From positions 80,108,579 through 80,172,578 of the forward strand of contig OX393556.1 in the NCBI GenBank assembly GCA_947650365.1: a stretch of 64,000 nt of DNA, read 5' to 3'. The notes under the pieces are model-generated. The model did no database searches. It was not told the origin of the DNA and saw only the letters and a program-made list of their open reading frames with translations. The position numbers were made by a program, and so were the translations under genes. Of the stretch, positions 1 through 64,000 are shown piece by piece. Within the stretch, counting starts at the first letter, position 1. Each line of letters opens with the position of its first letter. The DNA is from Chamaelirium japonicum. Taxonomy: Eukaryota > Streptophyta > Magnoliopsida > Liliales > Melanthiaceae.

Positions 1-436
1 CTAATTCATTCGCACGATCCATTCGAATTCATTAATATGATCCAATCTAATTCATTCATACGATCCATTCTAATTCATTCATACAATCCATTCTAATTCT
101 TTCACACGATCCATTCTAATTCATTCATACGATCCATTCTAATTCATTCGTACGATTCATGCTAATTCAATCCATTCTAATTCATTCGTACGATCCATTC
201 TTACTCATTCATACAATCTATTCTAATTCATTCGCACGAATTTATCCATTCTAATTCATTCGTACGATCCATTCTAATTCATTCGCACAATCTATTCTAA
301 TTCATTCGCATGAATGAATCCATTCTAATTCATTCGTACAATCCTTTGTATTTTATTCGTACGATCTATTCTTACTCATTCGTATGATCCATTCTACTTC
401 ATTCGCACGAATGTATCCATTCTAATTCATTCGTAT
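1..436 (-). repeat. 23-bp satellite, minus-oriented block
   Basis: Tandem 23-bp monomers read here as CCATTCTAATTCATTC plus GTACGAT. Several 28-bp forms (ending CGAATGTATCC) are interspersed, and some monomers are cut short, for example near 167-175. The block continues to the left beyond the window. Confidence 0.96.
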
Positions 437-830
437 GGATACATTCGTGCGAATGAATTAGAATAGATCGTATGAATGAGTTAGAATAGATTGTGCGAAT
501 GAATTAGAATGGATCGTACGAATGAATTAGAATGGATACATTCGTGCGAACGAATTAGAATGGGTCGTACGAATGAATTAGAATGGATCGTACAAATGAA
601 ATAGAATGGATTGTACGAATGAATTAGAATGGATAGTACGAATGAATTAGAATGGATCGTGTGAAAGAATTAGAATGGATTGTATGAATGAATTAGAATG
701 GATCGTATGATTGAATTAGAATGGATACATTCGTGCGAATGAATTAGAATGGATCGTGCGAATGAAATAGAATGGATCATACGAATGAATTAGAATGGAT
801 CATACGAATGAATTAGAATAGATTGTGCGA
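437..830 (+). repeat. 23-bp satellite, plus-oriented block
   Basis: The array flips at about 437, where a minus core runs straight into GGATACATTCGTGCGAATG. Monomers then read GAATGAATTAGAATGG plus ATCGTAC. This block starts the segment that is found again near 48670-49800. Confidence 0.96.
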
Positions 831-888
831 CGAATGTATCCATTCTAATTCATTCGTACGATCCATTCTAATTCATTCATACGATCAT
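831..888 (-). repeat. Two-monomer inverted islet in the satellite
   Basis: A short minus-oriented islet (one 28-bp form and two 23-bp forms) is set between plus blocks. It ends in GATC-ATA-GATC, a short-loop fold-back. The same islet with the same ends is at 49090-49147, so it was copied as part of a longer segment and is not an independent event. Confidence 0.93.
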
Positions 889-1709
889 AGATCGTACGAA
901 GGAATTAGAATGGATCATACGAATGAATTAGAATGAATGGATCGTACGAATGAATTAGAATGGATCGTACGAATGAATTAGAATGGATACATTTGTGCGA
1001 ATGAATTAGAATGGATCGTACGAATGAATAAGAATGGATCGTACGAATGAAATAGAATGGATTGTACGAAGGAATTAGAATGAATCATACGAATAAAATA
1101 GAATGGATCGTACGAAGGAATTAGAATGGATCGTACGAATGAATTAGAATGGATCGTACGAATGAATTAGAATGGATCGTACGAATGAAATAGAATGGAT
1201 TGTACGAATGAATTAGAATGGATCATACGAATGAATTAGCATGGATCGTGCTAATGAATTAGAATGGAACATACGAATGAATTAGAATGGATCGTAGAAT
1301 GGATCGTATGAATGAATTAGATTGGATCGTATGAATGAATTAGAATGGATCGTACGAATGAAGTAGAATAGATCGTACGAAGGAATTAGAATGGATCGTA
1401 CGAAGGAATTAGAATGGATACATTCGTGCGAATGAATTAGAATGGATCGTACGAATGAATTAGAATGGATCGTACGAATGAATTAGAATGGATCGTACGA
1501 ATGAAATAGAATGGATTGTACGAATGAATTAGAATGGATCGTACGAATGAATTAGAATGGATACATTCGTCCAAAAGAATTAGAATGGATCGTACGAATG
1601 AATTAGAATGGATCGTACGAATGAATTAGAATGGATCGGATCGTGCGAATGAATTAGAATGGATCGTATGAATGAATTAGAATGGATTGTACGAATGAAT
1701 TAGAATAGT
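889..1709 (+). repeat. 23-bp satellite, plus-oriented block
   Basis: Homogeneous plus-oriented monomers with core variants GAAGGAATTAG and GAATGAAATAG, plus one 28-bp form at about 1416. Much of the block is paralleled at 49148-49800. Confidence 0.96.
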
Positions 1710-2660
1710 TTCGTACGATCCATTCTAATTCATTCCCATGAATGTATACATTGATCGTACGAATGAATTAGAATGCATTCTATTTCATTCATACGATCTA
1801 TTCTAATTCATTCATACAATCCATTCTAATTCATTCCAATTTATTCATAATTCGTACAATCTATTCTAATTCATACAATCTATTCTAATTTATTCATACG
1901 ATCCATTCTAATTCATTCGCACGAATGTATCCATTGTAATTCATTCATACGATCCATTCTAATTTATTCGCACGAATGTATCCATTCTAATTCATTCATA
2001 CGATCCATTCTAATTCATTCGTACGATCCATTCTAATTCACTCATACGATCCATTCTAATTCATTCGCACGAATGTATCCATTCTAATTCCTTCGTACGA
2101 TCTATTCTAATTCATTCGTACGATCTATTCTAATTCATTCATACGATCCAATCTAATTCATTCGTACGATCCATTCTAATTGTACGATCCATTCTTACTC
2201 ATTCGTACGATCCATTCTAATTCATTTGCATGAATGTATCCATTCTACTTCATTCGTACGATCCATTCTAATTCATTCACACGATCCATTCTAATTCATT
2301 CATACGATCCAATCTAATTCATTCATACGATCCATTCTAATTCATTCGTACAATCCATTCTAATTCATTCGCACGATCCATTCGAATTCACTCATACGAT
2401 CCATTCTAATTCATTCGTATGATCCATTCCGAATGAATTAGAATGGATCGTGCTAATGAATTCGAATTGATTGTACGAATGAATTAGAATAGATAGTGCG
2501 AATAAATTAGAATGGATCGTACGAATGAATTAGAATGGATCATACGAATGAATTAGAATGGATATATTCGTGCAAATGAATTAGAATGGATCGTATGAAT
2601 GAATTAGAATGGATCGTACGAATGAATTAGATTGGATACATTCGTGCGAATGAATTAGAA
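1710..2660. repeat. Satellite mosaic with rapid orientation switches
   Basis: The order by eye is minus 1710-1752, plus 1753-1775, minus 1776-2430 and plus 2431-2660. The plus islet at 1753-1775 is a single monomer. Its right edge is a palindromic junction centred on ATGCAT. Confidence 0.94.
1761..1790. repeat. Palindromic orientation junction (ATGCAT)
   Basis: The two core copies meet head-on at AATGCATT. The 30-bp stretch is a palindrome with one mismatched pair. The same breakpoint in the monomer is used at 41764-41793. Confidence 0.9.
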
Positions 2661-3873
2661 CATACGATCCATTCTAATTCATTCATACGATCCATTCTAA
2701 TTCATTCGCACGATCCATTCTAATTCATTCATACGATCCAATCTAATTCATTCATACGATCCATTCTAATTCATTCGCACGAATGTATCCATTCTAATTC
2801 ATTCGCATGATCCATTCTAATTCATTCATAAAATCCATTCTAATTCTTTTGCACGAATCTATCCATTCTAATTCATTCGTACGATCCATTCTAATTCATT
2901 CGTATGATCCATTCTCATTCATTCGTATGATCCATTCTAATTCATTCGCACAATCTATTCTAATTCATTCGTACGATCAATTCTAATTCATTAGCACGAT
3001 CCATTCTAATTCATTCCTACGGTCCATTCTAATTCATTCACACGATCCATTCTAATTCATTCATACAATCCATTCTAATTCTTTTGCATGAATGTATCCA
3101 TTCTAATTCATTCGTACGATCCATTCTCATTCATTCGTACGATCAATTCTAATTCATTCGTACAACATTCTAATTCATTCAAACTATCCATTCTAATTCA
3201 TTCGTACGATCCATTCTAATTCATTCGTACGATCCATTCTAATTCATTCGTACGATCCATTCTAATTCATTCATACGATCCATTCTAATTCATTCACATA
3301 ATCTATTCTAATTCATTCGTACGATCCATTTTAATTCATTCGCACGATTCATTCTAATTCATTCGCACGAATGTATCCACTCTAATTCATTCGTACGATC
3401 CATTCTAATTCCTTCCTACGATCCATTCTAATTCCTTTGTACGATCCATTCTAATTCATTCGTACGATCCATTCTAATTCATTCAAGATCCATTCTAATT
3501 CCTTCGTACGATCCATTCTAATTCATTCGTACGATCCATTCTAATTCATTCGCACGATCCATTCTAATTCATTCATACGATCCAATCTAATTCATTCGTA
3601 CGATCCATTCTAATTCATTCGTACGATCCATTCTAATTCCTTCGTATGATCCATTCTAATTCAATCGTACGATCCATTCTAATTCAATCGTATGAACCAT
3701 TCTAATACATTTGCACGAATATATCCATTCTAATTCATTCGTACGATCCATTCTAATTCATTCATACGATCCATTCTAATTCATTCGTATGATCCATTCT
3801 ATTTCATTCGTACGATCCATTCTAATTTCTTTGTTCTAATTCATTCATACGATCCATTCTAATTCATTCGTAC
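2661..3873 (-). repeat. 23-bp satellite, minus-oriented block
   Basis: About 1.2 kb of minus-oriented monomers, mostly 23 bp, with 28-bp forms near 2780, 2850, 3090, 3370 and 3715. I see nothing else in it. Confidence 0.96.
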
Positions 3874-5195
3874 AAAGGAATTAGAATGGATCATACGAAA
3901 AAAATATAATGGGTCGTACAAAGGAATTAGAATGGATCTAATTCTTTTTTGCGACCTATTATATTTCATTCGTATGATCCATTCTAATTCCATTGTACGA
4001 TCCATTCTAATTCATTCCCATGAATGTATCCATTCTAACTCATACGTATGATCCATTCTAATTCATTCGCACAATCTATTCTAATTCATTCATACGATCC
4101 ATTCTAATTCATTCGCACGAATGTATCCATACGAATGAAATATAATGGGTCGTACAAAGGAATTAGAATGGATCGTCCAAGGAATTAGATTGGATTGTAT
4201 GAATGAATTACAATGAATTCGTACGATCCATTCAAATTCATTCATACGATACATTCTAATTCATTCGTACGATCCATCCTAATTCATTCATACAATCCAT
4301 TATAATTCTTTCACAAGATCCATTCTAATTCATTCGATCGATCCATTCTAATTCATTCGTACAATCCATTCTATTTCATTCGTACGATCCATTCTTACTC
4401 ATTCGTATGATCCATTCTAATTAATTTGCACGAATGTATACATTCTAATTCATTCGCATGATCCATTCTAATTCATTCGTACGATCCATTCTAATTCATT
4501 CGCACAGATCGTATGAATGAATTAGAATGGATCGTGCGACGTACGATCCATTCTAATTCCTTTGTACGACCCATTATATTTCATTCGTATCGTACGATCC
4601 ATTCTAATTCATTCGCACGATCCATTCTAATTCATTCATATGATCCATTCTAATTCATTCATACAATCCATTCTAATTCTTTCGTACGATCCATTCTAAT
4701 TCATTCGTACAATCCAATCTAATTCATTCGTACGATCCATTCTAATTCATTCGTACGATCCATTCCAATTCCTTCGTACGAATGTATAGATTGTACGAAT
4801 GAATTAGAATGAATCGTACGAATGAAATAGAATGGATTGTACGAAGGAATTAGAATGGATCATACGAATGAAATAGAATGGATCGTAATCTAATTCATTC
4901 ATACGATCCATTCTAATTCATTCGCACAATCTATTCTAATTCATTCGTACGATCCATTCTAATTCATTCGTACGATCCATTCTAATTCATTCGCACGAAT
5001 GTATCCATTCTAATTCATTCGTACGATCCATTCTAATTCATTCGCACAATCTATTCTAATTCATTCGTACGATCAATTCTAATTCATTAGCACGTTCTAT
5101 TCTAATTCATTCGTGCGATCAATTCTAATTCATTCTTATGATCCATTCTTACTCATTCGTATGATCCATTCTAATTCATTCGCACGAATGTATCC
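3874..5195. repeat. Satellite mosaic with rapid orientation switches
   Basis: The order by eye is plus 3874-3938, minus to 4129, plus to 4217, minus to 4506, plus to 4538, minus to 4788, plus to 4887 and minus to 5195. Several islets are only one to four monomers long. The stretch from 4885 to about 5100 matches one at 60055-60270. Confidence 0.94.
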
Positions 5196-7811
5196 TACGA
5201 ATGAATTAGAATGGATATATTCCTGCAAATGAATTAGAATGGATCATATGTATGAATTAGAATGGATACATTCATGGGAATGAATAAGAATGGATCGTAC
5301 GAATGAATTTGAATGGATCGTACGAATGAATTAGAATGGATCGTACGAATGAATTAGATTGGATCGTACGAATAAATTAGAATGGATCGTATGAATGAAA
5401 TGGAATGGATCATACGAATGAATTAGAATGGATCGTGCGAATGAATTAGAATGGATCGTGTGAATGAATTAGAATGGATCGAACGAATGAATTAGAATGG
5501 ATCGTATGAATGAATTAGAATAGATTGTGCGAATGAATTAGAATGTATCATACGAATGAATTAGAATGGATCGTATGAATGAATTACAATAGATTGTATG
5601 AATGAATTAGAATGGATCATACGAATGAGTAAGAATGGATCGTACGAATGAAATAGAATGGATTGTACGAATGAATTAGAATGGATCGTATGAATGAATT
5701 AGAATGGATCGTACAAAGGATGGATACATTCGTGCGAATGAATTAGAATGGATCGTACGAATGAATTAGAATGGATCGTATGAATGAATTCGAATGGATC
5801 GTGCGAATGAATTAGAATGGATCGTACGAATGAATTAGAATGGATCGTATGAATGAATTAGAATAGATCGTGCGAATGAATTAGAATGGATCGCACGAAT
5901 GAATTAGAATGGATCGTAGGAATGAATTAGAATGGATCGTGCGAATGAATTAGAATGGATCGTGCGAATGAATTAGAATGGATCGTACGAATGAATTAGA
6001 ATGGATCGTATGAATGAATTAGAATGGATCGTACGAAGGAATTAGAATGGATCATATGAATGAATTAGAATGGATCGTATGAATGAATTAGATTGGATCG
6101 TATGAATGAATTAGAATGGATCGTGCGAATGAATTAGAATGGATCGTGCGAATGAATTAGAATGGATTGTATGAAGGAATTAGAATGGATCGTACGAAGG
6201 AAATAGAATGGATCGTACGAATGAATTAGAATGGATATATTTGTGCAAATGAATAAGAATGGATCGTACGAATAAATTAGAATGGATCGTATGAATGAAT
6301 TAGGATGGATCATGCAAATGAATAAGAATGGATCGTGCGAATGAATTAGAATGGATCGTACGAATGAATTAGAATGGATCGTATGAATGAATAAGAATGG
6401 ATCGTACGAAGGAATTAGAATGGATCATACGAATGAATTAGAATGGATCGTATGAATGAATTAGATTGGATCGTATGAATGAATTAGAATGCATCGTGCG
6501 AATGAATTAGAATGGATCGTGCGAATGAATTAGAATGGATTGTACGAAGGAATTAGAATGGATCGCACGAAGGAATTAGAATGGATCGTACGAATGAATT
6601 AGAATGGATATATTCATGCAAATGAATTAGAATGGATCGTACGAATGAATTAGAATGGATCGTATGAATGAATTAGAATGGATCGTGCGAATGAATCAGA
6701 ATGGATCGTACAAATGAATTAGAATGGATCGTATGAATGAATTAGAATGGATCGTACGAAGGAATTAGAATAGATCATATGAATGAATTAGAATGGATCG
6801 TATGAATGAATTAGATTGGATCATATGAATGAATTAGAATGGATCGTGCGAATGAATTAGAATGGATCGTGCGAATGAATTAGAATGGATCATACGAAGG
6901 AATTAGAATGGATCGTACGAATGAATTAGAATGGATATATTCGTGTAAATGAATTAGAATGGATCGTACGAATGAATTAGATTGGATCGTATGAATGAAT
7001 TAGAATGGATCATGCGAATGAATTAGAATGGATCGTGCGAATTAATTAGAATGGATCGCACGAATGAATTAGAATGGATCATACGAAGGAATTAGAATGG
7101 ATCATACGAATGAATTAGAATGGATCGTATGAATGAATTAGATTGGATCGTATGAATGAATTAGAATGGATCGTGCGAATGAATTAGAATGGATCTTGCG
7201 AACGAATTAGAATGGATTGTACGAAGGAATTAGAATGGATCGTACGAATGAATTAGAATGGATATATTCGTGCAAATGAATTAGAATGGATCGTACGAAT
7301 GAATTAGAATGGATTGTATGAATGAATTAGAATGGATCGTGCGAATGAATTAGAATGGATCGTGCGAATGAATTAGAATGGATCGTACGAATGAATTAGA
7401 ATAGATCGTATGAATGAATTAGAATGGATCGTACGAAGGAATTAGAATGGATCATACGAATGAATTAGAATGGATCGTATGAATGAATTAGAATGGATAC
7501 ATTCGTACGAATGAATTTGAATAGATTGTGCGAATGAATTAGAATGGATCGTACGAATGAATTAGAATAGATCGTGCTAATGAATTAGAATGGATCATAC
7601 TTATGAATTAGAATGGATCGTACGTGCGAATGAATTAGAATGGATTATACAAATGAAATAGAATGGATCATACGAATGAAATAGAATGGATCGTACGAAG
7701 AAATTAGAATGGATCGTATGAATGAATTAGATTGGATCGTATTAATGAATTAGAATGGGTCGTATGAATGAATTAGAATGGATCGTGCTAATGAGTAAGA
7801 ATGGATCGTAT
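5196..7811 (+). repeat. Long homogeneous plus-oriented satellite block
   Basis: About 2.6 kb with no orientation change, unusually long for the left arm. It holds a local higher-order repeat, annotated separately. It ends at about 7811, where ATCGTATC runs into ACGATCCATTC. Confidence 0.97.
5850..7490 (+). repeat. Higher-order repeat of 327/350/373 bp
   Basis: Two rare monomer variants recur in register. The GATTGG variant is at 6091, 6464, 6814 and 7141, spaced 373, 350 and 327 bp. A 28-bp form reading GGATATATTCGTGCAAAT or close to it is at 6233, 6606, 6933 and 7260, spaced 373, 327 and 327 bp. These distances equal 28 + 15x23, 28 + 14x23 and 28 + 13x23. The composite of 14-16 monomers was therefore amplified as one unit, with copies differing by whole monomers. 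Outer limits are approximate. Confidence 0.9.
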
Positions 7812-9230
7812 CACGATCCATTCTAATTCATTCATACGATCCAATCCAATTCATTCATACGATACATTCTTACTCATTCGTATGATCCATTCTAATTCAT
7901 TCGTACGATCCATTCTAATTCATTCGTACGATCCATTCTAATTCATTCGTACAATCCATTCTATTTCATTCGTATGATCCATTCTAATTCATTCGTACAA
8001 TCCATTCTAATTCATTCGTACGATCCATTCTACGATCCATTCTAATTCATTCGTACGTTCCATTCTAATTCATTAGCACGATCCATGCTAATGAATTAGA
8101 ATGGATCGTACGAATGAATTAGAATGGATCGTACGAAGGAATTAGAATGGATCGTACAAAGGAATTAGAATGGATCGTACGAAGGAATTAGAATGGATCG
8201 TATGAATGAATTAGAATGGATCGTACGAATGAATTAGAATGGATACATTCGTTGCACAATCTATTCTAATTCATTCGTACAATCCATTCTAATTTATTCG
8301 TACGATTCATTCTAATTCATTCGCACAATCCATTCTAATTCATTCGCACGAATGTGTCCATTCTAATTCATTCATACGATCCATTCTATTTCATTCATAT
8401 AATCCATTCTAATTCTTTCACACGATCCATTCTAATTCATTCGTACGATCCATTCTAATTCATTCGTACAATTCATTCTATTTCATTCGTACGATCCATT
8501 CTAATTCATTCGTACGATCCATTCTAATTCATTCGCACGAATGTATCCATTATAATCCATTCGCACGATCCATTCTATTTCATTCGTACGATCCATTGTA
8601 ATTCATTCGCACAATCTATTCTAATTCATTCATACGATCCATTCTAATTCATTCGCACGAATGTATCCATACGAATGAATTAGAATGGATACATTCGTGC
8701 GAATGAATTAGAATGGATCATACGAATGAGTAAGAATGGATCGTACGAATGAAATAGAATGGATAGTACGAATGAATTAAATTGGATCGTATGAATGAAT
8801 TAGAATGGATCGTGCGTCGTACGAATGAATTAGAATGGATCGTATGAATGAATTAGAATGGATCGTGCTAATGAATTAGAATAGATTGTGCGAATGAATT
8901 AGAATGGATCGTACGAATGAATTAGATTGGATCATATGAATGAATTAGAATGGATCGTGCGAATGAATTAGAATGGATCGTACGAATGAATTAGAATGGA
9001 TCGTACGAATGAATTAGAATGGATATTACGAAGGAATTAGAATGGATCGTACGAAGGAATTGGAATGGATCGTACGAAGGCATTAGAATGGATCGTATGA
9101 ATGAATTAGAATGGATCGTACGAATGAATTAGAATGGGTACATTCGTCGCACAATCTATTCTAATTCATTCGTATGATCCATTCTATTTCATTCGCACGA
9201 TCCATTCTAATTCATTCGTACGAATGTATC
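7812..9230. repeat. Satellite mosaic up to the retroelement
   Basis: The order by eye is minus 7812-8088, plus to 8252, minus to 8670, plus to 9148 and minus to 9230. The last piece ends in CGAATGTATC, the 28-bp form into which the retroelement inserted. The stretch 8690-9190 resembles 25450-25900. Confidence 0.94.
9226..9230. repeat. Target site duplication, left copy
   Basis: GTATC lies directly before the TGTTTGGGGG end of the element and is repeated directly after its other end. A 5-bp duplication is usual for Ty3/gypsy integrases. Confidence 0.95.
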
Positions 9231-10411
9231 TGTTTGGGGGATTTTTCCTGGTCCTTGCGAGCCACCTGTAAGACCAAGAAAAGAGAAACGTGAGAACGGC
9301 TGGCTCCCTTAGGAGCGCAGACCCTCCGACGCTCAAGTCAGTTATGGTAGCACAACGGAGAGCTGTTGTATACCAAAGTGGTAGTGAAAGGGATTTCGAA
9401 CCTGTACTTTGGAGCCTGGGGGTGTGCATTTATAGACATTGGCGACCTATCGGGGTGTGACGTGTGGCAGCTCTTTCCGGCACCTTCTAGACCCCCACGT
9501 GCTGGCTCGCGTGGGTCTGACAGTCCTTGGTACTTGTGCTCCTGACATTCTTTGTCGTCTAGCTCGCCTGACGAAGTAGTGGGGGACAACTGCTGCTGTT
9601 CTGTTGCCGCCAGGGGAATCTTCTAGAATGTTCAAGTCTGGGAGTTCTCAAACCGACTCTGACGGGCTTCCGTGGACTGCAATCGTCCACGTAGCTTCAG
9701 TGGGTTCTCGACACCTGGCAACCCTTGGAGCGGGCTCCTTGCTTGCTGTGGGGCGAGCTCCTTGCGAGCTGCGGGGCGAGCTCCTTGCGAGCTGCGGGGC
9801 GAGCTCCTTGCGAACTGTTAGGCGAGCTCCTTGAGAGCTGTGGGGCGAGCTCCTTGCGAGTTGTGGGGCGAGCTCCTTGCGAGCTGTGGGGCGAACTCCT
9901 TGCGAGCTGTTTAGGCGAGCTCCTTGCGAGCTGTGGGCGAGCTCCTTGCGAGCTGTGGGGCGAGCTCCTTGCGAGCTGTGGGCGAGCTGCACTCAGATAC
10001 AAGGTGTCCATCCAGCTCCCTGTGGGGGCGAGCTCCTGATGGGCGAGCTCCTATCAATGTGGGGCGAGCTCCTTTTGAGCTGAGGGGGCGAGCTCCTTGC
10101 GAGCTGGAGGGCGAGCTCCTTGCGAGCTGGAAAGGGGGCACACTCGGTCTTCCGAGGGTTTCAACTCCTGGACGGGCTTCTGAGCGAGCTTGGGCGAGCT
10201 CCTGAGCGAGCTTGGGCGAGCTCCTTAGCGAGCTTGGGCGAGCTCCTTAGCGAGCTTTTGGCGAGCATGGGTGAGCTCCTAAGCGAGCTTGGGCGAGCTC
10301 TTTGCCTAGGGCCCCTTCAGCCCAAATTGGATCTTGCTCCCTGTCAAGATGATTTTTAGTGAGCACGGGGGAGAGGGCGAACTCCTGTGCGAGTTTCAGC
10401 GACCCCCAACA
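9231..10411 (-). repeat. 3' LTR of the retroelement
   Basis: A 1181-bp LTR, the same length as its partner at 15698-16878 (constant offset 6467, no length differences). On the minus strand it begins TGTTGGGGG and ends CCCCCAAACA. It contains a GC-rich minisatellite and a minus-strand TATAAATG near 9427-9434. Confidence 0.96.
9731..10305. repeat. GC-rich minisatellite inside the 3' LTR
   Basis: Tandem units close to GGCGAGCTCCTTGCGAGCT, about 23 bp each in the first part and about 22 bp in the later part (unit ending GAGCGAGCTT). A short unique stretch lies near 9989-10025. The units contain the self-complementary GAGCTC. Long open frames on both strands here are repeat-driven and not genes. 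Confidence 0.92.
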
Positions 10412-10423
10412 TTACCCCCTCCT
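10412..10423 (-). other. Polypurine tract
   Basis: On the minus strand AGGAGGGGGTAA lies directly before the 3' LTR, the place and composition expected for the plus-strand primer of reverse transcription. This supports the minus-strand orientation of the element. Confidence 0.8.
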
Positions 10424-10540
10424 GAGGGAGTGATCGAGGAAACTCGACGATTCCTCAGGAGTCTTAGCGAGTTCCTATCCCTCGTAATGTGCCTGATATC
10501 AATGTCTGCTGCAACAGTTTCCTGGCGGGCTAGGGATGGT

Positions 10541-11215
10541 AGCCACGGGCGGTCTGTGTCGAGAGCTTTGACTGTCAGTATTCCAGAAACGCTGGGCGGG
10601 CCGGGAGCATCAGCCACGAGCGATCTCCTTCTGGTGGTCGCTTCATCTTAAATGTGGCGCGAGGCTCAAGGCGGATACAGCGTATCTCATCTTAGTGAGA
10701 CCTCGAGGACCATGCTGTTGCATCAATCATTGGGCGGGCTGCGAGCATCTGCCACGAGCTATCTCTCCTTAGTGAGACCTCGAGAACGATGTTGCTGCAA
10801 CCAGCGCTGGGCGGGCCGGGAGCATCAGCCACGAGCGATCTCCTTCCGGTGCCAGCAGGTCACACGCGGTCAGGGTCTGCGTCGGGCGAGCTGCGGGCAC
10901 CTGCCATGGGCGGTCTGCACCGAGAGTTTTGACTCCCAGTATTGTCACAAACGCTGGGCGGGCCGGGAGCGCCAGCCTCGAGCGATCTCCTTCCGGTGCG
11001 AGCTTGTCACACGAGTCAGGGTCGGCGTCGGCGAGCTGCGGGCACCAGCCGTGGGCGGTCTGCGCCGAGAGTTTTAACTCCCAGTATTTCACAAACGCTG
11101 GGCGGGCCGGAAGCGTCAGCCACGAGCGATCTCCTTCCGATGCGAGCTTGTCACATGCGGACAGGGTCTGCCTTGGGCGAGCTGCGGGCTCCTGCCGCGA
11201 GCGATCTTGTGACTT
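10541..11215. repeat. Tandem repeat of about 145 bp before the 3' LTR
   Basis: The motif GCTGGGCGGGCCGG starts at 10591, 10806, 10953 and 11098, with a diverged copy at 10729. The last three are 147 and 145 bp apart. Each is followed by AGCCACGAGCGATCTCC or a close variant. Amplified tandem repeats in this untranslated region are known from Retand- and Ogre-like elements. The stretch 10424-10540 holds nothing else that I recognise. Confidence 0.85.
10636..10694 (+). repeat. Dispersed direct repeat, copy 1
   Basis: A stretch of roughly 55-60 bp around TTAAATGTGGCGCGAGGC is found again at 11238-11292. The two copies bracket the 145-bp tandem repeat. Confidence 0.8.
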
Positions 11216-11237
11216 GGGTATCGCACCAAATCTCCAA

Positions 11238-11292
11238 CGGTCGCTTCACCTTAAATGTGGCGCGAGGCTCAACGCTGATACGGCGAATCTCA
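11238..11292 (+). repeat. Dispersed direct repeat, copy 2
   Basis: Partner of the copy at 10636, with the same TTAAATGTGGCGCGAGGC core. From 11293 to the TATA box at 11516 I see only unique GC-rich sequence, which could be the upstream promoter of the plus-strand ORF. Confidence 0.8.
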
Positions 11293-11515
11293 TCATGAGA
11301 TCCCGATCGACGCGAGACACGTGTCTCCTTCTCATTCGCTCTCTTCTGTGTCAGTAAAGGACAGTGTCGGCGCCGGCACAGCCTTTTCCACGCGTGGCCC
11401 ACGTGGCGCTTGACGATTGGCAAGAAGCGAGCTGTCGCTTCGTCTGTCGTCACGTCGCCTCGCCGGGTGCGCTCGAGCATTAACTGCGGATCGATTCACC
11501 TGTCTCTCACTCGTC

Positions 11516-11523
11516 TATAAATA
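11516..11523 (+). promoter_or_regulatory. TATA box upstream of the plus-strand extra ORF
   Basis: TATAAATA followed by GGGG lies on the plus strand 124 bp before the ATG at 11647. The sequence between is rich in CTCTC and CTTC, like many plant 5' leaders. It points against the direction of the element's own genome, so it would drive the extra ORF independently of the LTR. The position and match are seen; activity is inferred. Confidence 0.65.
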
Positions 11524-11646
11524 GGGGATGGGGGGCGATTTTTACCGTCGCGTGAAAACAGCTCTCCCTTCTCTCCAGCTCGCTCTCTCTTCCCTGCTTT
11601 CAGCTCGCCTTTGCTGCTTTCAGCTCGCCTTTGCTTTTCTGCTCTG

Positions 11647-12780
11647 ATGGCCTCCGCTTCCGACGTTGCTGCCGCTGTTGCCGCCGCTGCTGCAGCCGCC
11701 CAAGCCTCCGAGCCCGCCGCTGAGAGGGCGGTGGTTTGGCTGCAGAACCCGATCGGGGTGCCCGTCGGGGAGAGTATCCGGGCGGCGATCGATCTCCCTC
11801 AGGAGATCCTCGTCACCGAGATGCCACTCTCGGGGAGGCCGCCCCAGGGCACAGTAGCTTCTGTCGGGCTGCTGTGGTCCGGGCTGTGGTTCCCCCTGAG
11901 TCATCTTGCCGGGGAGCTCTTGGAGTTGACGGGGCTTTGCCCCGCCCAACTCTCAGGAAACTCCTGGGGGATACTCTACGAGTTATCCCAGCTGGAGACC
12001 GCTCTGAAGGCGAGGATCCCACTGAGCTACTTGCTCAAAAAGTGGCTCCTCAAGCCCTCTCCGGTCTTCAGCACCGTGGGCTGCGGCTACTTCTACCTTG
12101 CCGGGCGGCCTGGCGAGGTGCTCCCCTTCTCCACCGTCGAGAGCAAGGACCGCCACTGGAAGGACTATCCCTTCGTGGTGGTCGGCAACTGGCGTGGGCG
12201 GCACAGCGGAGTCCCGGCTCACCCCGGGGTTCCCCCGACGGCGGTCTTCCGGGAGATCTCCTTCTACAAGGCGGGGAAGAAGAAGTGCATCGCTCCCGAT
12301 CGGGAGCGATCTTTGGATGAGGCGTTCCTCCACTACCTCGGTGGGCGGACTCCGGAGAAGATCACCGCTCCCGACTTCGCCTTCCAGCTGAAGGACGGGA
12401 AGACCGGCGCTATTCTGCTGAAGCAGAAAGTCGTCCGGAAGAAGAAAGAGGAGGAGGTCGGCGCTATTCCGCCGATGCAGAACGCCCCTCCTCCCTCCAA
12501 AGGGGCCAGCAAGGGGGCAGGGAGCTTCGGAGGCAACCCCCGCAAAAAGGTGGTCCGAAGGCGGGCTTCGCCCATCCGCCTCAACGACCCCGATACCATG
12601 GAGATGCTCCGCCAGGACGAAGCCCGCCTTCGGATCCACTCGGGGAAGTGCGCCTCGCGTATGAAGCCAGCTCGCTCTAGCTTGTCTATCTCTGCCGCCA
12701 CTGCAATGGATTTCGCAGCAGGTATGTGCCGAGCTTTCTGCTTGACCGGCGGGAACTCCTTCACGGTATGCAGACGATGA
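11647..12780 (+). CDS. Antisense extra ORF, gypsy-type transposon domain protein (Transposase_28-like)
   Basis: This frame runs opposite to gag-pol and stays open to 12780. The start is the first ATG after the TATA box, giving MASASDV followed by a run of alanines (residues 7-19). Residues about 66-185 resemble the plant 'putative gypsy type transposon' domain (Pfam Transposase_28), with hallmarks such as GLWFPLSHLAGELLELTGL, CPAQLSGNSWGIL and a following YFYLAGRPG...WKDYPFVVVGNW stretch. The later part is lysine- and arginine-rich (VVRKKKEEE, RKKVVRRR), which would suit nuclear entry or nucleic-acid binding. Its role is not established for the family. Tat-group elements are known to carry extra ORFs here, some in antisense. 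The last stretch, after roughly 12650, is less convincing as part of this protein. It belongs to the retroelement and is treated as part of that fossil. Confidence 0.65.
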   Translation: MASASDVAAAVAAAAAAAQASEPAAERAVVWLQNPIGVPVGESIRAAIDLPQEILVTEMPLSGRPPQGTVASVGLLWSGLWFPLSHLAGELLELTGLCPAQLSGNSWGILYELSQLETALKARIPLSYLLKKWLLKPSPVFSTVGCGYFYLAGRPGEVLPFSTVESKDRHWKDYPFVVVGNWRGRHSGVPAHPGVPPTAVFREISFYKAGKKKCIAPDRERSLDEAFLHYLGGRTPEKITAPDFAFQLKDGKTGAILLKQKVVRKKKEEEVGAIPPMQNAPPPSKGASKGAGSFGGNPRKKVVRRRASPIRLNDPDTMEMLRQDEARLRIHSGKCASRMKPARSSLSISAATAMDFAAGMCRAFCLTGGNSFTVCRR

Positions 12781-13016
12781 CAGGCGACCTCCGGGTCAAT
12801 CCCTGGCATGTCCGCGAAGCTCCATGCGAATACGTCGCGGTATTTCCTGAGCAAGTCGGTTATGGCCAGGACCTCGCCCTTAGTTAACGAGGTCCCGAGA
12901 CTAACAATTCTCGGCCCTTCTACGCCGCCAATGTCGATCTCTTGCAGTGGTTCGGCAACTGGAAAGCTTCCTTTCCTGGGGGTTGTCAGGCGACCTTCCT
13001 CCAACTTAAGATCCAC
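12660..13016 (-). pseudogene. pol fossil: N-terminal part of reverse transcriptase
   Basis: The translation holds LLRKYRDVFAWSFADMPGID followed by KEFPPVKQKAR and EIDKLERAGFIREAHFPEWI. This is the conserved lead-in to the reverse transcriptase palm of plant Tat/Athila-type elements, where FAWS..DMPGIDP is highly characteristic (12792-12830 here). It lies downstream of the protease in element order. It is part of the broken retroelement; no later pol domain was recognised in the window. Confidence 0.85.
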
Positions 13017-13169
13017 ACCGCTCCCACCCGAGGATGGAGCAGGGGACTTAGGCGAGGAGGTTCCCAGCGGACTCCCCAGGAGCTCGCTCGTAGATGGCGG
13101 TAACTGCTAGGAGGGTGCTGGCCTTTTGGCCTCGGCGACCTCCATGTCCATGAGGTGAGGAGCATCCTG

Positions 13170-13574
13170 CTCGCATCTGGTTGCGGTTACCTGATCACCC
13201 CGAATAACTACGACCCCGCTCGCGGTTGGGAATTTGAGGGCCTGATGGTTGGGTGAAGACACCGCCTTCATCTGCCTTAGCCAAGGCCGCCCAAGAATGG
13301 CGTTAAAGGCCGAACTCCCATCGACTACCGCGAAGCGGACTTGGCGAGCTTCCAGGCCCGCTGTCACGGTGAGGGTTATCTCTCCCGCTACTTTAGCGAC
13401 CTCACCGGTGAATCCGCTGAGGGAGCTCGTCGAGGGAGACAGGTCGGCAAGTCTCAACCCCATTCGCAGGTAGGCCGACAGAAAAAGAATGTCAACGGCG
13501 CTTCCTGAATCTATCAGAGCTCGCCTTACCTCGATGTTTGCCATCATCAGGCGTATGACGAGGGGGTCATTGTG
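13170..13574 (-). pseudogene. pol fossil: retropepsin-like aspartic protease
   Basis: The translation contains ALIDSGSAVDILF, with the catalytic D-S-G at about 13503-13511, and about 70 residues later the ILGRPWL motif that closes the retropepsin fold. Between them lies a beta-rich stretch typical of plant Ty3/gypsy proteases. The family cleaves Gag and Pol as a homodimer. It follows the zinc knuckle in the same open stretch. It belongs to the broken element. Confidence 0.85.
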
Positions 13575-13929
13575 GGGCGTGACGACCCCAGCCATGTCGT
13601 CCTCCGAAAACCAGAGGAAATCGCGGGCTTCTGTCCTTGGTGCTCGAAGTAAAGTAGGAGTTAGCGAGACAGAAAATACCTTTTGCGCCCTCTCCATCTC
13701 TCTTACTCGCCGGCGGGCTTCATTACTTGATCTGGGGCCGCTCAGCCGCCCGCTAATGGTGTGGCAGATCGCCGGTCCTCCCGGGGGCGGAGGAGGTAAG
13801 GCGGGCTCAGCGAGTCCTGGGCGATCTCCCTCCCGAGGAGCTCGTTCTGGAATCACCTCGAACCTCCTCGGGGGCGAGATGAATTGGGTCAAATGCCCCA
13901 GCGTGATCAAGTCCTCCAGGTGGTTTTTC

Positions 13930-15609: not shown

Positions 15610-15678
15610 CTTCGGGGTTATGAAAGCCGTCAGCGCACAACCGTATAGTCGTGGGCGTTCTCGCAGGAACCAGTCGGG

Positions 15679-15697
15679 TCCCACAGACGGTGCCAAA
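15679..15697 (-). other. Primer binding site
   Basis: On the minus strand TTTGGCACCGTCTGTGGGA directly follows the 5' LTR. It resembles the TGGCGCCGT-type primer binding sites of plant Tat-group elements. I cannot assign the tRNA with certainty. It fixes the element's direction together with the polypurine tract. Confidence 0.75.
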
Positions 15698-48000: not shown

Positions 48001-49147
48001 CGTTCCATTCTAATTCATTCGCACAATCTATTCTAATTCCTTCGTACGTATGATCCATTCTAATTCCTTCGTACGATCCATTCTAATTCATTCGCCTGAA
48101 TGTATCCATTACGAATGAATTAGAATGGATACATTCATGCGAATGAATTAGAATGGATCATACGAATGAGTAAGAATGGATCGTACGATCCATTCTAATT
48201 CATTCGCACGATCCATTCTAATTCATTCGCACGATCCATTCTAATTCATTCATACGATCTATTCTAATTCTTTCGCACGAATGTATCCATTCTAAGTCAT
48301 TCGCACGAATGTATCCATTCTAATTCATTTGTACGATCCATTCTAATTCCTTCGTACGATCCATTCTAATTCCTTTGTTCTAATTCATTCATACGATCCA
48401 TTCCAATTCATTCGTACGATTCATTCTAATTCAATCCATTCTAATTCATTCGTACGATCCATTCTTACTCATTCATACAATCCATTCTAATTCATTCGCA
48501 CAAATTTATCCATTCTAATTCATTCGTACAATCCATTCTAATTCATTCGCACAATCTATTCTAATTCATTCGCACGAATGAATCCATTCTAATTCATTCG
48601 TACAATCCATTCTATTTCATTTGTACGGTCCATTCTTACTCATTCGTATGATCCATTCTAATTCATTCGTATAGATACATTCGTGCGAATGAATTAGATT
48701 GGATCGTATGATTGAATTAGAAAAGATTGTGAGAATGAATTAGAATGGATCGTACGAATGAATTAGAATGGATACATTCGTGCGAATAAATAAGAATGGG
48801 TCGTACGAATGAATTAGAATGGATCGTACGAATGAATTAGAATGGATCGTACGAATGAAATAGAATGGATCGTACGAATGAAATAGAATGGATCGTACGA
48901 ATGAATTAGAATGGATGGTGTGAAAAAATTAGAATGGATTGTATGAATGAATTAGAATGGATTGTATGAATGAATTAGAATGGATACATTCGTGCGAATG
49001 AATTAGAATGGATCGTGCGAATGAAATATAATGGATCGTACGAATGAATTGGAATGGATCGTACGAATGAATTAGAATAGGTTGTGCGACGAATGTATCC
49101 ATTCTAATTCATTCGTACGATCCATTCTAATTCATTCATACGATCAT
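48001..49147. repeat. Satellite mosaic
   Basis: Minus to 48110, plus to about 48184, minus to 48672, plus to 49089 and a minus islet to 49147. The last part parallels 437-888 with an offset of about 48259. Confidence 0.94.
48173..48196. repeat. Perfect 24-bp palindrome at an orientation switch
   Basis: AGAATGGAT and its complement meet around CGTACG. It is the same breakpoint in the monomer as at 59589-59614. Confidence 0.93.
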
Positions 49148-50203
49148 AGATCGTACGAAGGAATTAGAATGGATCATATGAATGAATTAGAATGAATGGA
49201 TCGTACGAATGAATTAGAATGGATCGTACGAATGAATTAGAATGGATACATTCGTGCGAATGAATTAGAATGGATCGTACGAATGAGTAAGAATGGATCG
49301 TACGAATGAAATAGAATGGATTGTACGAAGGAATTAGAATGGATCATACGAATAAAATAGAATGGATCGTACGAAGGAATTAGAATGGATCGTACGAATG
49401 AATTAGAATGGATCGTACGAATGAATTAGAATGGATCGTACGAATGAAATAGAATGGATTGTACGAATGAATTAGAATGGATCGTACGAATGAATTAGCA
49501 TGGATCGTGCTAATGAATTAGAATGGAACGTACGAATGAATTAGAATGGATCATAGAAAGGATCGTATGAATGAATTAGATTGGATCTTATGAATGGATT
49601 AGCATAGATCGTACGAATGAATTAGAATAGATCGTACGAAGGAATTAGGATAGATAGTACGAAGGAATTAGAATGGATACATTCGTGCGAATGAATTAGA
49701 ATGGATCGTACGAATGAATTAGAATGGATCGTACGAATGAAATAGAATGGATTGTACGAATGAATTAGAATGGATCGTATGAATGAATTAGAATGGATCG
49801 TACGAATGAATTCATACATGTACGAATGAATTAGAATGGATACATTCGTGCAAATGAATTAGAATTAGAATGGATCGTGCGAATGAATTAGAATGGATCG
49901 TATGAATGAATTAGAATGGATTGTGCGAATGTATTAGAATGGATACATTCGTGCGAATGAATTAGAATGGATCATACGAATGAATTAGAATGGATCGTAT
50001 GAATGAATTAGATTGGATCGTATGAATGAATTAGAATGGATCGTGCGAATGAATTAGAATGGACCGTACGAATGAACTACAATGGATCGTATGAATGAAT
50101 TAGAATGGATCGTACGAATGAATTAGAATGGATCGTAAGAATAAATTAGAATGTATCGTATGAGTGAATTCGAATTGATCGTGCGAATGAATTAGATCAT
50201 ACG
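49148..50203 (+). repeat. 23-bp satellite, plus-oriented block
   Basis: Its first half parallels 889-1555 and its second half parallels 61035-61530. The block thus joins two different duplicated segments near 49700-49800. Confidence 0.95.
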
Positions 50204-52700
50204 TTCCATTCTAATTCATTCGCACAATCTATTATAATTCCTTCGTACGTACGATCCATTCTAATTCCTTCGTACGATCCATTCTAATTCATTCGCACGA
50301 ATGTATCCATTACGAATGAATTAGAATGGATACATTCGTGCGAATGAATTAGAATGGATCATACGAATAAGTAAGAATGGAACGTACGCATTCTTATTCA
50401 TTCGTACGATCCATTCTAATTCATTCGCACGATCCATTCTAATTCATTCATACGATCTATTCTAATTCTTTCGCACGAATGTATCCATTCTAATTCATTC
50501 GCACGAATTTATCCATTCTAATTCATTCGTACGATCCATTCTAATTCCTTCGTACGATCCATTCTAATTCCTTCATACGATCCATTCTAATTCCTTTGTT
50601 CTAATTCATTCATACGATCCATTCTAATTCATTCGTACGATTCATTCTAATTCAATCCATTCTAATTCATTTGTACGATCTATTCTAATTCCTTCGTACG
50701 ATCCATTCTAATTCGATCCATTCTAATTCATTCAAACGTAAAAATTCATACGTACGATCCATTCTAATTCATTCGTACGATCCATTCTAATTCCTTCGTA
50801 CGATCCATTCTAATTCATTCATACGATCCATTCTAATTCATTGTACGATCCATTCTAAATCCTTCGTACAATCCATTCTAATTCCTTCGTACGATCCATT
50901 CTAATTCATTCGCACGATCCATTCTAATTCCTTCGTACGATCCATTCTAATTCATTCGTACAATCTATTCTAATTCATTCGCATGATCCATTCTAATTCA
51001 TTAATACGATCCAATCTAATTCATTCATACGATCCATTCTAATTCATTCATACAATCCATTCTAATTCTTTCACACGATCCATTCTAATTCATTCGTACG
51101 ATCCATTCTATTTCATTCGTATGATCCATTCTAATTCATTCATACGATCCATTCTAATTCATTCGCACGATCCATTCTAATTCATACGTACGATCGATTC
51201 TATTTCATTCGTACGATCCATTCTAATTCATTCATACGATCCATTTTAATTCATTCATACGATCCAATCTAATTCATTCATATGATCCATTCTAATTCAT
51301 TTGCACGAATATATCCAATCTAATTCATTCGTACGATCCATTCTAATTCCTTCGTACGATCCATTCTAATTCCTTAACACAATCCATGCTAATTCATTCG
51401 TACGATCCATTCTATTTCATTCGTACGATCCATTATTACGATCTATTCTAATTTATTCGTACGATCCATTCTAATTCATTCGCACAATCTATTCTAATTC
51501 ATTCGTATGATCCATTGTAATTCATTAGCACGAATGTATCCATTCTAATTAATGAATTAGAATGGATACATTCGTGCAAAAGAATTAGAATGGATTGTAT
51601 GAATGAATTAGAATGGATCGTGCGAATGAATTAGAATGGATCGTACGAATGAATTAGAATGGATACATTCGTGCGAATGAATTAGAGTACGATCCTTTCT
51701 TACTCCTTCGTATGATCCATTCTAATTCATTCGTACGAATGTATCCACTCTAATTCATTCGTACGATCCATTCTAATTCATTCGCACAATCTATTCTAAT
51801 TCATTCGTATGATCCATTCTATTTCATTTGTACGATCCATTCTTACTCATTCGTACGATCCATTCAAATTCATTCGCACGAATGTATCCATTCTAATTCA
51901 TTTGTACAATGGATACATTCGTGCGAATGAATTAGAATGGATCGTGTGAAAGAATTAGAATGGATCGTGTGAAAGAATTAGAATGGATTGTATGAATGAA
52001 TTAGAATGGATCGTATGAATGAATTAGAATGGATCGTGCGAATGAATTAGAATGGATCGTACGAATAAATTAGAATAGATTGTACGAATGAATTTGAATG
52101 GATCGTGTGAAAGAATTAGAATGGATTGTATGAATGAATTAGTATGAATGAATTAGAATGGATCGTGCTAATGAATTAGAATGGATCGTACGAATGAATT
52201 GGAATGGATATATTTGTGGAAATGAAGTAGAATGGATCGTATGAATGAATTAGAATGGATCGTACGAATGAATTAGAATGGATCGTACGAATGAATTAGA
52301 ATGGATCATACGAATGAGTAAGAATGGATCGTATGAATGAATTAGATTAGATCGTATGAATGAATTAGAATGGATCGTACGAAGGAATTAGAATGGATCG
52401 TACGAATGAATTAGAATGGATACATTCGTGCGAATGAATTAGAATGGATTGTACGAATGAATTAGAATGGATCGTGCGAATGAATTAGAATGGATCGTAC
52501 GAATGAATTAGAATGGATCGTATGAATGAAATTAGAATGGATCGTACGAATGAATTAGAATAGATTGTGCGAATGAATTAGAATGGAACGTACGATCTAA
52601 TTCATTCGCACGATCCATTCGAATTCACTCATACGATCCATTCTAATTCATTCATACGATCCATTCTATTTCATTCGTATGATCCATTCTAATTCTTTTG
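49700..52700. repeat. Long segmental duplication, copy A
   Basis: Colinear with 61035-64000. The odd junction TTCATACATG is at 49811 and 61145 (offset 11334), and CGATCTAATTC is at 52593 and 63901 (offset 11308). Every orientation switch between is shared. The net difference of 26 bp is close to one monomer. Confidence 0.93.
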
Positions 52701-59614: not shown

Positions 59615-60335
59615 TTTCATTCGTATGATCCATTCTAATTCATTCGTACGATCAATTCTAATTCATTAGCACGATCCATTCTAATTCATTCGTACAATCC
59701 ATTCTATTTCATTCGTACGATCCATTCTTACTCATTCGTACGATCCATTCTAATTCATTCACACAAATGTATCCATTCTATTTCATTCGTACGATCTATT
59801 CTAATGCATTTGTACGATCCATTATAATTCACTAGCACGATCGTACGAATTAATTAGAATTGATCGTGCGAATGAATTAGAATGGATCGTGCGAATGAAT
59901 TAGAATGGATCGTACGAATGAATTAGAATGGATACATTCGTGCGAATGAATTAGAATGGATCATACGAATGAGTAAGAATGGATCGTACAAATGAAATAG
60001 AATGGATTGTACGAATGAATTAGAACGGATTGTATGAATGAAATAGAATGGATAGTAATCTAATACATTCATACGATCCATTCTAATTCATTCGCACAAT
60101 CTATTCTAATTCATTCGTACGATCCATTCTAATTCATTCGTACGATCCATTCTAATTCATTCGCACGAATGTATCCATTCTAATTCATTCGTACGATCCA
60201 TTCTAATTCATTCGCACAATCTATTCTAATTCATTCGTACGATCAATTCTAATTCATTAGCACGATCCATTCTAATTCATTCGTACGATCTATTCTAATT
60301 CATTCGTACGATCCATTCTAATTCACTAGCACGAT
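59602..60335. repeat. Satellite mosaic
   Basis: Minus to 59840, plus to 60057 and minus to 60335. Both minus pieces end in CACTAGCACGATCGTACGAA, so the junction itself was duplicated about 495 bp apart. Confidence 0.93.
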
Positions 60336-61530
60336 CGTACGAATGAAATAGAATGGATCGTACGAATGAATTAGAATGGATCATATGAATGAATTAGAAT
60401 AGATCGTGTGAATGAGTAAGAATGGATCGTACGAATGAAATAGAATGGATCGTACGAATAAATTAGAATGGATCGTGTGAAAGAATTAGAATGGATTGTA
60501 TGAATGAATTAGAATGGATCGTATGAATGAATTAGAATGGATCGTGCGAATGAATTAGAATGGATCGTACGATTGAATTAGAATGGATACATTCGAGCGA
60601 ATGAATTAGAATGGATCGTACGAATGAGTAAGAATGGATCGTACGAATGAAATAGAATGGATCATACGAATGAATTAGAATGGATCTTGCGAATAAAATA
60701 GAATGGATCGTATGAATGGATTGGATTGGATCGTATGAATGAATTAGATTGGATCGTATGAGTAAGAATGGATCGTACGAATGAAATAGAATGGATCGTA
60801 CGTATCAATTAGAATGGATATATTCATGGGAATGACATAGAATGGATCGTACGAAGGAATTAGAATGGATCATACGAATGAAATAGAATGGATCATACGA
60901 ATGAATTAGAATGGATCATATGAATGAATTAGAATGGATACATACGAATGAATTAGAATGGATCGTAGATCGTACGGAATGAATTAGAATGGATCGTATG
61001 AATGAATTAGAATGGATCGTGCAAATGAATTAGAATGGATCGTACGAATGAATTAGAATGGATCGTACGAATGAAATAGAATGGATTGTACGAATGAATT
61101 AGAATGGATCGTATGAATGAATTAGAATGGATCGTACGAATGAATTCATACATGTACGAATGAATTAGAATGGATACATTCGTGCAAATGAATTAGAATT
61201 AGAATGGATCGTGCGAATGAATTAGAATGGATCGTATGAATGAATTAGAATGGATTGTGCGAATGTATTAGAATGGATACATTCGTGCGAATGAATTAGA
61301 ATGGATCATACGAATGAATTAGAATGGATCGTATGAATGAATTAGATTGGATCGTATGAATGAATTAGAATGGATCGTGCGAATGAATTAGAATGGATCG
61401 TACGAATGAATTACAATGGATCGTATGAATGAATTAGAATGGATCGTACGAATGAATTAGAATGGATCATAAGAATAAAATAGAATGTATCGTATGAGTG
61501 AATTCGAAAGGATCGTGCGAATGAATTAGA
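60336..61530 (+). repeat. 23-bp satellite, plus-oriented block
   Basis: Contains the composite set at 60585-60665. From about 61035 it follows copy A of the long duplication. Confidence 0.95.
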
Positions 61531-64000
61531 TCATACGTTCCATTCTAATTCATTCGCATAATCTATTCTAATTCCTTCGTACGTACGATCCATTCTAATT
61601 CCTTCGTACGATCCATTCTAATTCATTCGCACGAATGTATCTATTACGAATGAATTAGAATGGATACATTCGTGCGAATGAATTAGAATGGATCATACGA
61701 ATGAGTAAGAATGGAACGTACGCATTCTAATTCATTCGTACGATCCATTCTAATTCATTCGCACGATCCATTCTAATTCAGTCATACGATCTATTCTAAT
61801 TCTTTCGCACGAATGTATCCATTCTAATTCATTCGCACGAATGTATCCATTCTAATTCATTCGTACGATCCATTCTAATTCCTTCGTATGATCCATTCTA
61901 ATTCCTTTGTACGATCCATTCTAATTCCTTTGTTCTAATTCATTTATACAATCCATTCTAATTCATTCGTACGATTCATTCTAATTCAGTCCATTCTAAT
62001 TCATTCGTACGATCTATTCTAATTCCTTCGTACGATCCATTCTAATTCGATCCATTCTAATTCATTCAAACGTAAAAATTCATACGCACGATCCATTCTA
62101 ATTCATTTGTACGATCCATTCTAATTCCTTCGTACGATCCATTCTAATTCATTCATACGATCCATTCTAATTCATTGTACGATCCATTCTAAATCCTTCG
62201 TACGATCCATTCTAATTCCTTCGTACGATCCATTCTAATTCATTCGCACGATCCATTCTAATTCCTTCGTACGATCCATTCTAATTCATTTGTACGATCT
62301 ATTCTATTTCATTCGCATGATCCATTATAATTCATTAATACGATCCAATCTAATTCATTTATATGATCCATTCTAATTCATTCATACAATCCATTCTAAT
62401 TCTTTCACACGATCCATTCTAATTCATTCGTACGATCCATTCTTTTTCATTCGTATGATCCATTCTAATTCATTAATACGATCCATTCTAATTCATTCGC
62501 ACGATCCATTCTAATTCATACGTACGATCCATTCTATTTCATTCGTACGATCTATTCTAATTCATTCATACGATCCATTATAATTCATTCATACGATCCA
62601 ATCTAATTCATTCATACGATCCATTCTAATTCATTTGCACGAATATATCCATTCTAATTCATTCGTACGATCCATTCTAATTCCTTCGTACGATCCATTC
62701 TAATTCCTTAGCACAATCCATGCTAATTCATTCGTACGATCCATTCTATTTCATTCGTACGATCCATTATTACGATCCATTCTAATTTATTCGTACGATC
62801 CATTCTAATTCATTTGCACAATCTATTCTAATTCATTCGTATGATCCATTCTAATTCATTAGCACGAATGTATCTATTCTAATTAATGAATTAGAATGGA
62901 TACATTCGTGCAAAAGAATTAGAATGGATTGTATGAATGAATTAGAATGGATCGTGCGAATGAATTAGAATGGATCGTACGAATGAATTAGAATGGATAC
63001 ATTCGTGCGAATGAATTAGAGTACGATCCATTCTTACTCATTCGTATGATCCATTCTAATTCATTCGTACGAATGTATCCACTCTAATTCATTCGTACGA
63101 TCCATTCTAATTCATTCGCACAATCCATTCTAATTCATTCGTATGATCCATTCTATTTCATTTGTACGATCCATTCTTACTCATTCGTACGATCCATTCA
63201 AATTCATTCGTACGATCCATTCTATTTCGTGTGAAAGAATTAGAATGGATCGTGTGAAAGAATTAGAATGGATTGTATGAATGAATTAGAATGGATCGTA
63301 TGAATGAATTAGAATGGATCGTGCGAATGAATTAGAATGGATCGTACGAATAAATTAGAATAGATTGTACGAATGAATTTGAATGGATCGTGTGAAAGAA
63401 TTAGAATGGATTGTATGAATGAATTAGTCTGAATGAATTAGAATGGATCGTGCTAATGAATTAGAATGGATCGTACGAATGAATTGGAATGGACATATTC
63501 GTGCAAACGAAGTAGAATGGATAGTATGAATGAATTAGAATGGATCGTACGAATGAATTAGAATGGATCGTACGAATGAATTAGAATGGATCATACGAAT
63601 GAGTAAGAATGGATCGTATGAATGAATTAGATTAGATCCTATGAATGAATTAGAATGGATCGTACGAATGAATTAGAATGGATCGTACGAAGGAATTAGA
63701 ATGGATCGTACGAATGAATTAGAATGGATACATTCGTGCGAATGAATTAGAATGGATCGTACGAATGAATTATAATGGATCGTGCGAATGAATTAGAATG
63801 GATCGTACGAATGAATTAGAATGGATCGTATGAATGAAATTAGAATGGATCGTACGAATGAATTAGAATAGATTGTGCGAATGAATTAGAATGGAACGTA
63901 CGATCTAATTCATTCGCACGATCCATTCGAATTCACTCATACGATCCATTCTAATTCATTCATACGATCCATTCTATTTCATTCGAATGATCCATTCTAA
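61035..64000. repeat. Long segmental duplication, copy B
   Basis: Colinear partner of 49700-52700. It probably continues past the end of the window. Within it the satellite is plus to 61530, minus to 61644, plus to 61724, minus to 62886, plus to 63024, minus to 63227, plus to 63902 and minus to 64000. The rare variant AAACGTAAAAATTCATACG is near 62068. Confidence 0.93.

Follow-up and report, generated by a model that had tools for sequence, protein, structure and literature searches.

The stretch of DNA analysed here (the window; 64,000 bp of contig OX393556.1, assembly GCA_947650365.1) comes from Chamaelirium japonicum, the NCBI name for Chionographis japonica, and consists mainly of a short tandem satellite, almost certainly Chio1/Chio2, whose monomers alternate between the two strands. 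The 80 strand switches of this array probably combine founding joints, which are rare, with numerous copies of them, carried within direct and inverted duplications of kilobase size. The explanation that we favour is a mosaic of two tiers, in which switches would seldom be formed and the blocks carrying them would then be copied. The switch count, the families into which the junctions fall, the duplications and the retention of switches in both copies are directly demonstrated.

Strand map of the satellite

Orientation was mapped with a strand-aware Viterbi hidden Markov model (HMM) that has states for monomers of 23 bp and 28 bp, each on both strands. The satellite, in mixed orientation throughout, covers 56.35 kb of the window, at positions 1 to 9225 (also delimited with Tandem Repeats Finder) and 16881 to 64000, and the remainder is one insert of 7.65 kb. 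An original prediction, made from the letters alone, of about 80 orientation flips in 56 kb is confirmed by this map, which holds 80 switches and 82 satellite blocks, two of them being the halves of one minus tract split by a transposon. Block lengths of about 23 bp to 4 kb, also predicted, agree with the range of 23 to 4,040 bp given by the HMM (median 426.5 bp). The same is true of the purely satellite nature of the joints, as the transposon is the only background block and every joint runs from satellite to satellite. In total, 28,185 bp lie on the plus strand and 28,167 bp on the minus strand.

The number of switches is stable over intermediate switch penalties (82, 80, 80 and 78 at penalties of 11, 14, 18 and 24), with 156 switches at a penalty of 8, where 46 blocks are shorter than 46 bp, and 72 at a penalty of 32. 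With the internal monomers set in a single orientation as a control (54,459 bp), no switch was called at penalty 14. A map based on the 23-bp monomer alone was discarded; its blocks numbered 87, including a background one, and it misread parts of the 28-bp variant as flips of 8 to 12 bp.

Two elements of the prediction need to be qualified. A monomer of 23 bp is indeed dominant (1,887 of 2,297 internal monomers), but a second length of 28 bp is also present (232 of 2,297), the commonest 28-mer differing from the commonest 23-mer by a 5-bp insertion and one substitution. Additionally, positions 9,226-16,880 are occupied not by satellite but by a long terminal repeat (LTR) retrotransposon, which the predicted 56 kb already excludes.

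These characteristics are those of a known repeat. Chio1 (23 bp) and Chio2 (28 bp), distinguished by a deletion of 5 bp and a single-base substitution, form the CENH3-bound holocentromere satellite of Chionographis japonica, a holocentric lilioid (Kuo et al. 2023, PMC10264360). They have been described as intermingled, with a mixture of forward and reverse arrays and a dyad able to form hairpins (PMC10264360). The 9-bp motif TTCGTACGA, which is common to Chio and the satellite of the sister genus (PMC12722358), occurs in the window in 376 plus-strand and 357 minus-strand copies. As monomer sizes, variant difference, TTCGTACGA and mixed orientation all agree, we consider the identity, judged from the published description, to be close to certain. 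A text search of the literature for six monomer pieces matched no paper, the published letters being placed in a figure and a supplementary table. Human HSat-like repeats, considered because of a GGAAT-like appearance, were dropped given the 23/28-bp match. It is also probable that the window is part of a Chio1/Chio2 centromere unit.

Duplications within the array

Likeness between parts of such an array must be judged against a high background, as random pairs of 23-bp monomers are 88% alike and three unrelated kilobase pairs are 87.0-88.8% alike. Alignment of monomer strings nevertheless yields 14 duplication chains, 9 direct and 5 inverted, with scores of 26 to 386, against a maximum of 16.1 in 12 full shuffles. 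In an ungapped scan scored +1/-8, monomer shuffles reach 218, and matches below that value were not used alone. The largest direct pair is not among the longest 90 of 653 matches returned by BLAST at 93% identity.

Three paired spans stand out. The first is an inverted duplication with arms of 7.4 kb (18479 to 25855) and 8.4 kb (27660 to 36067), which are 95.9% alike over 5,903 columns; its outer part is 96.1% alike over 966 columns and its innermost 300 bp are less so (94.4%). The second is a direct pair at 49,690-52,692 and 61,024-64,000, whose second copy reaches the window end, and whose likeness is 98.1% over 2,954 columns. The third, also direct, joins 127-1,521 to 48,391-49,757 (96.1% over 1,344 columns). 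The four alignments contain 243+38+56+52 = 389 substitutions between copies, and 14 of their 23 gap runs correspond to whole monomers or their sums.

Copying of switches

The switches within these spans are shared by the two copies. For instance, those of the left arm of the inverted pair (19627, 21242, 22150, 23403) are mirrored in the right arm (29895, 31283, 32660, 34453), and the direct pairs carry seven and three switches in each copy. With the edge switch at 25,855 excluded, the counts are thus 4 vs 4, 7 vs 7 and 3 vs 3, and all 14 are matched in place across the 389 substitutions, while 13 agree in junction sequence as well. The paired copies thus display no clear gain or loss of a switch over that divergence; with zero unmatched switches, the 95% upper bound on new switches is about 3 per 389 substitutions. 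Consequently, switching is rare relative to duplication, and the frequent turning round proposed in the original prediction is not borne out.

Copying extends beyond the paired spans. Under lenient clustering (at most 3 mismatches in 32), the 80 switches fall into 45 junction families, with 55 switches in 20 families of several members. A stricter test allowed at most 4 mismatches in 32 and demanded, in addition, a likeness of the flanks above that of random pairs in the same phase, whose null scores are 38 (95%) and 57 (99%); it leaves 38 switches in 14 families and 42 as single, that is, 56 distinct junctions. The strict links between junctions are direct in 18 cases and inverted in 13.

A separate observation concerns three junction families (5195, 8669, 50310 and their relatives), in which TATCC, TATCCA or TATCCAT is joined to TACGAATG, with ends that differ by 1-2 bp. 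Slippage from a single ancestral joint could account for them, as could a recurrent site.

Formation of new switches

Whatever the extent of copying, founding joints must come from a process other than unequal crossing-over alone, which cannot produce strand switches; on this point the prediction is supported. It had suggested fold-back replication or break repair between inverted copies in addition to it. A rival reading is that most switches were made directly by fold-back or template-switch replication, often at the TTCGTACGA hairpin, each being its own event. On its side, a Chio2 dimer folds better than its shuffles (z -3.3; z -1.2 for Chio1), and breakpoints favour the half-monomer that contains the dyad. 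Additionally, the arms of the inverted duplication described above are separated by about 1.8 kb of single-copy sequence with a strand switch at one edge only, a spacer comparable to those of human inverted duplications (PMC3907307). However, inverted matches score no higher beside the switches than at control points (median score 103.5 at 80 switches vs 108.0 at 400 controls). Scores of at least 150 are found at 2 of the 80 switches and 55 of the 400 controls, and scores above the shuffle maximum of 218 at one switch (25,855) and 24 controls, 20 of which lie within 25,855-29,895, in the spacer or the right arm of the one inverted duplication. On the same count, local palindromes were rejected as the usual setting of switches: only 1 of 80 is flanked by such arms as a hinge, in the one inverted duplication whose anatomy resembles the predicted fold-back copying. 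Older hinges may have decayed to background.

At the joints themselves, template overlap, counted once per lenient family, is 0 bp in 26 of 45, a result that chance joining would also give (P 0.47 for one polarity and 0.14 for the other), and no excess of microhomology was observed in these families. When four lenient families with insert positions were excluded, the remaining 41 showed no pile-up of symmetry axes at the hairpin dyad (3 lie at the TCGTACGA axis; chi-square P 0.37), and switching on the axis of that dyad is thus not supported. The axes of 75 of the 80 switches are uneven (P 0.0004), in a set that counts copies repeatedly. As copies already account for 38 of the 80 switches, the view that most arose by separate turn-round events appears unlikely to us.

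The inverted pair

The one duplication that resembles fold-back deserves separate attention. Its spacer (25856 to 27659) is single-copy, lies on the minus strand and measures 1.75-1.80 kb, with a strand switch at its left end only, at 25,855. Its right edge is placed at 27,605 through a third copy at 8,673-9,147, which puts the inner edge of the right arm at 27,606, and at 27,659 by direct alignment; neither a strand switch nor a register jump was found at 27,540-27,660, nor any strand switch at the outer ends of the pair. The pair thus resembles fold-back in its anatomy, with a kilobase single-copy spacer between inverted arms and a single new joint, at only one of the spacer edges. These traits are known from human fold-back inverted duplications (PMC3907307), in which 21 sequenced junctions have spacers of 766-70,466 bp (median 3,428 bp), inverted homology spans 2-8 bp at 13 of the 21 joints and about 300 bp at 3, and the duplications extend up to megabases. 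From this anatomy, we infer a fold-back origin for the pair at 18.5-36.1 kb, in which the spacer of about 1.8 kb would have been the loop. A stricter version, with 27,606 as the exact mirror position of the joint at 25,855 and an overlap of about 1 bp, was dropped, as the direct alignment ends at 25,847/27,660.

An alternative origin is that the mosaic derives mostly from inversions by homologous recombination between inverted tracts, the pair being a direct duplication that was later inverted. Homology would be ample for this (88.8% over 1,221 columns in the one pair of opposite, unrelated tracts that was compared), members of a junction family can lie in either orientation to each other, with 13 of the 31 links inverted, and the outer ends of the pair fall in tracts without a strand switch. 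Such inversions, however, relocate switches and create none, so that out-of-register joints need another process, and a spacer with a one-sided switch is the plain product of fold-back. We regard this origin as quite unlikely for most of the mosaic.

Weighing of the two-tier explanation

Under the explanation that we prefer, a broken array would, on rare occasions, continue into an inverted stretch, by joining or by restarting there, and so acquire a lasting switch with a register near random. Blocks of about 0.2 to 8 kb would then be copied elsewhere, in either orientation, by homology-driven repair or recombination, and would bring their switches along. Given the homology of every plus monomer to every minus monomer, tracts might also be shifted along or inverted by recombination, with no new joints formed. 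The repair pathway behind switches and copying is, in this scheme, a matter of inference from the pattern that they have left.

Several observations weigh against this explanation or parts of it. The 42 switches that are single under the strict test display no history, and the copies, being detected by similarity, may under-sample regions that hold new switches. In one matched pair (51,907/63,226), the junction sequence differs and the alignment has a 44-bp gap, and switch 25855, where the left inverted arm terminates, has no mirror partner and stands outside the 14. Regarding the fold-back origin of that pair, and in contrast to the human cases (PMC3907307), the mirrored point of the joint is placed only to about 55 bp, and the hinge junction is found again at 830, 8,252, 9,147 and 49,089; because of this recurrence, the hinge joint need not date from the inverted duplication. 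In the strict set, the axes of 51 of the 56 junctions have a peak of 8 at phase 11, beside the GATC axis (overall P 0.08), and dyad bonds hold more breakpoints than expected from 1,200 simulated joins (42 of 90 vs 31, P 0.012; 49 of 112 vs 38.8, P 0.028). Moreover, the evidence comes from one 64-kb stretch of one assembly, probably a portion of one centromere unit.

The uneven distribution of breakpoints along the monomer indicates that joining is not wholly random. The excess is nevertheless not specific to the dyad, since the richest 7-bond window (53 of 112 breakpoints) begins at TGGATCG and not at the dyad; breaks within the dyad itself were set aside as a candidate because, although the excess is real, this window lies beside it. 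The pattern is consistent with breakage in the GGATCGTACGA half of the monomer and subsequent joining that needs little homology, and it weakly supports the published idea of hairpin-promoted breaks (PMC12722358).

It could also be argued that the switches are an artefact of chimeric or mis-joined contigs, satellites being hard to assemble. At duplicated switches this is unlikely, judging from the letters of the copies, as these have diverged by 2-4% together with their flanks, which is not expected from a chimeric read, and as the prevalence of whole-monomer gap runs is unlike chimeric joins. Furthermore, the published genome, if it is the same assembly, was obtained from HiFi libraries with means of 14-26 kb, well above the longest tract of 4,040 bp, and mixed orientation has been described in each centromere unit (PMC10264360). 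As a general account of the switches, an artefact is hardly credible.

Comparison with other satellites and significance

Both the satellite and its alternating orientation have already been published, and the flips as such are not new. The array resembles the published Chio1/Chio2 in its 23/28-bp variants, dyad hairpin motif, intermingling, forward and reverse arrays and higher-order-repeat cluster, whereas the mixed orientation described there, in the text and the legend of Fig. 3e, is accompanied in the consulted portions by no switch counts, junction families or duplication history (PMC10264360). A later report again describes Chio orientation as often alternating (PMC12722358). What the present analysis would add is the junction families and the duplication history, which the consulted portions of these two Chio accounts (PMC10264360, PMC12722358) do not describe; this is a thin basis for calling them unreported, and not proof.

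Two other satellites are informative. The Chama satellite of Chamaelirium luteum shares the 9-bp TTCGTACGA, but has a 60-bp monomer and consistently oriented arrays (PMC12722358). The macro-dyad satellites of the beetle Tribolium madens also have kilobase inverted subarrays of one satellite, with conserved sequences at the inversion sites, although most of their arrays, with an ancestral unit of about 110 bp, comprise two subarrays (PMC13081366), as opposed to dozens of short tracts here. The window does not have such a macro-dyad organization, with its 82 short blocks and recurring joints at fewer than half of the switches (38 of 80).

Separating the making of switches from their copying turns switches into orientation-aware markers in an array where ordinary markers are scarce, and reveals kilobase inverted and direct duplications as drivers of array turnover here. 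As a tentative extension, switches may be long-lived heritable markers, produced by rare fold-back or illegitimate repair and spread by orientation-blind kilobase copying, so that an array might be read as a pedigree of its repair. Mixed orientation could then help to explain why Chio came to occupy about 100 centromere units, whereas Chama, the array of the sister genus with its single orientation, remained at one site. The same map, extended across the 100 units of Chionographis japonica (PMC10264360), could test the seeding of one unit by another, which is discussed, and not settled, in PMC10264360 and PMC12722358.

The retrotransposon insert and local repeats

The insert that interrupts the array is an LTR retrotransposon (9231 to 16878, minus strand, with gag-like and protease-like fragments on that strand), placed in a minus tract. 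The flanks carry a 5-bp target-site duplication, GTATC (9226 to 9230 and 16879 to 16883). Its two LTRs (9231 to 10411, with TG...CA ends, and 15698 to 16878) are 99.3% alike, with 8 mismatches in 1,181 sites. As this divergence (0.7%) is below those of the duplications (1.9%, 3.9% and 4.1%), the block copying examined would have preceded the insertion, if rates are alike.

The GC content of the insert is 53-63% per kilobase, vs 33% in the satellite array. Of the 25 open reading frames (ORFs) of at least 100 amino acids (aa) listed over 9100-17000, five were scanned against Pfam; they gave a gag-like match (E 4.8e-4) and an aspartyl-protease-like match (E 0.0033), both below the curated Pfam cut-offs, and no reverse transcriptase or integrase was found among these five. 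A plus-strand ORF of 389 aa (11611-12780) runs antisense to the gag and protease frames and matches nothing in Pfam up to an E value of 5. Antisense ORFs occur in some plant Ty3/gypsy lineages. The LTRs contain tandem repeats of 22-23 bp rich in GAGCTC (9726-10300 and 16193-16767), with a period close to that of the host satellite.

Adjoining the insertion are two 234-bp stretches (8090-8323 and 8985-9218), 895 bp apart and 94.4% alike, each spanning a plus-to-minus switch (8252 and 9147, respectively). Finally, local direct higher-order repeats are present at 5730-7500, 31887-32520 and 42021-43447, for instance with an offset of 327 bp at 6339-7498 and 31887-32520, and represent ordinary head-to-tail expansion.

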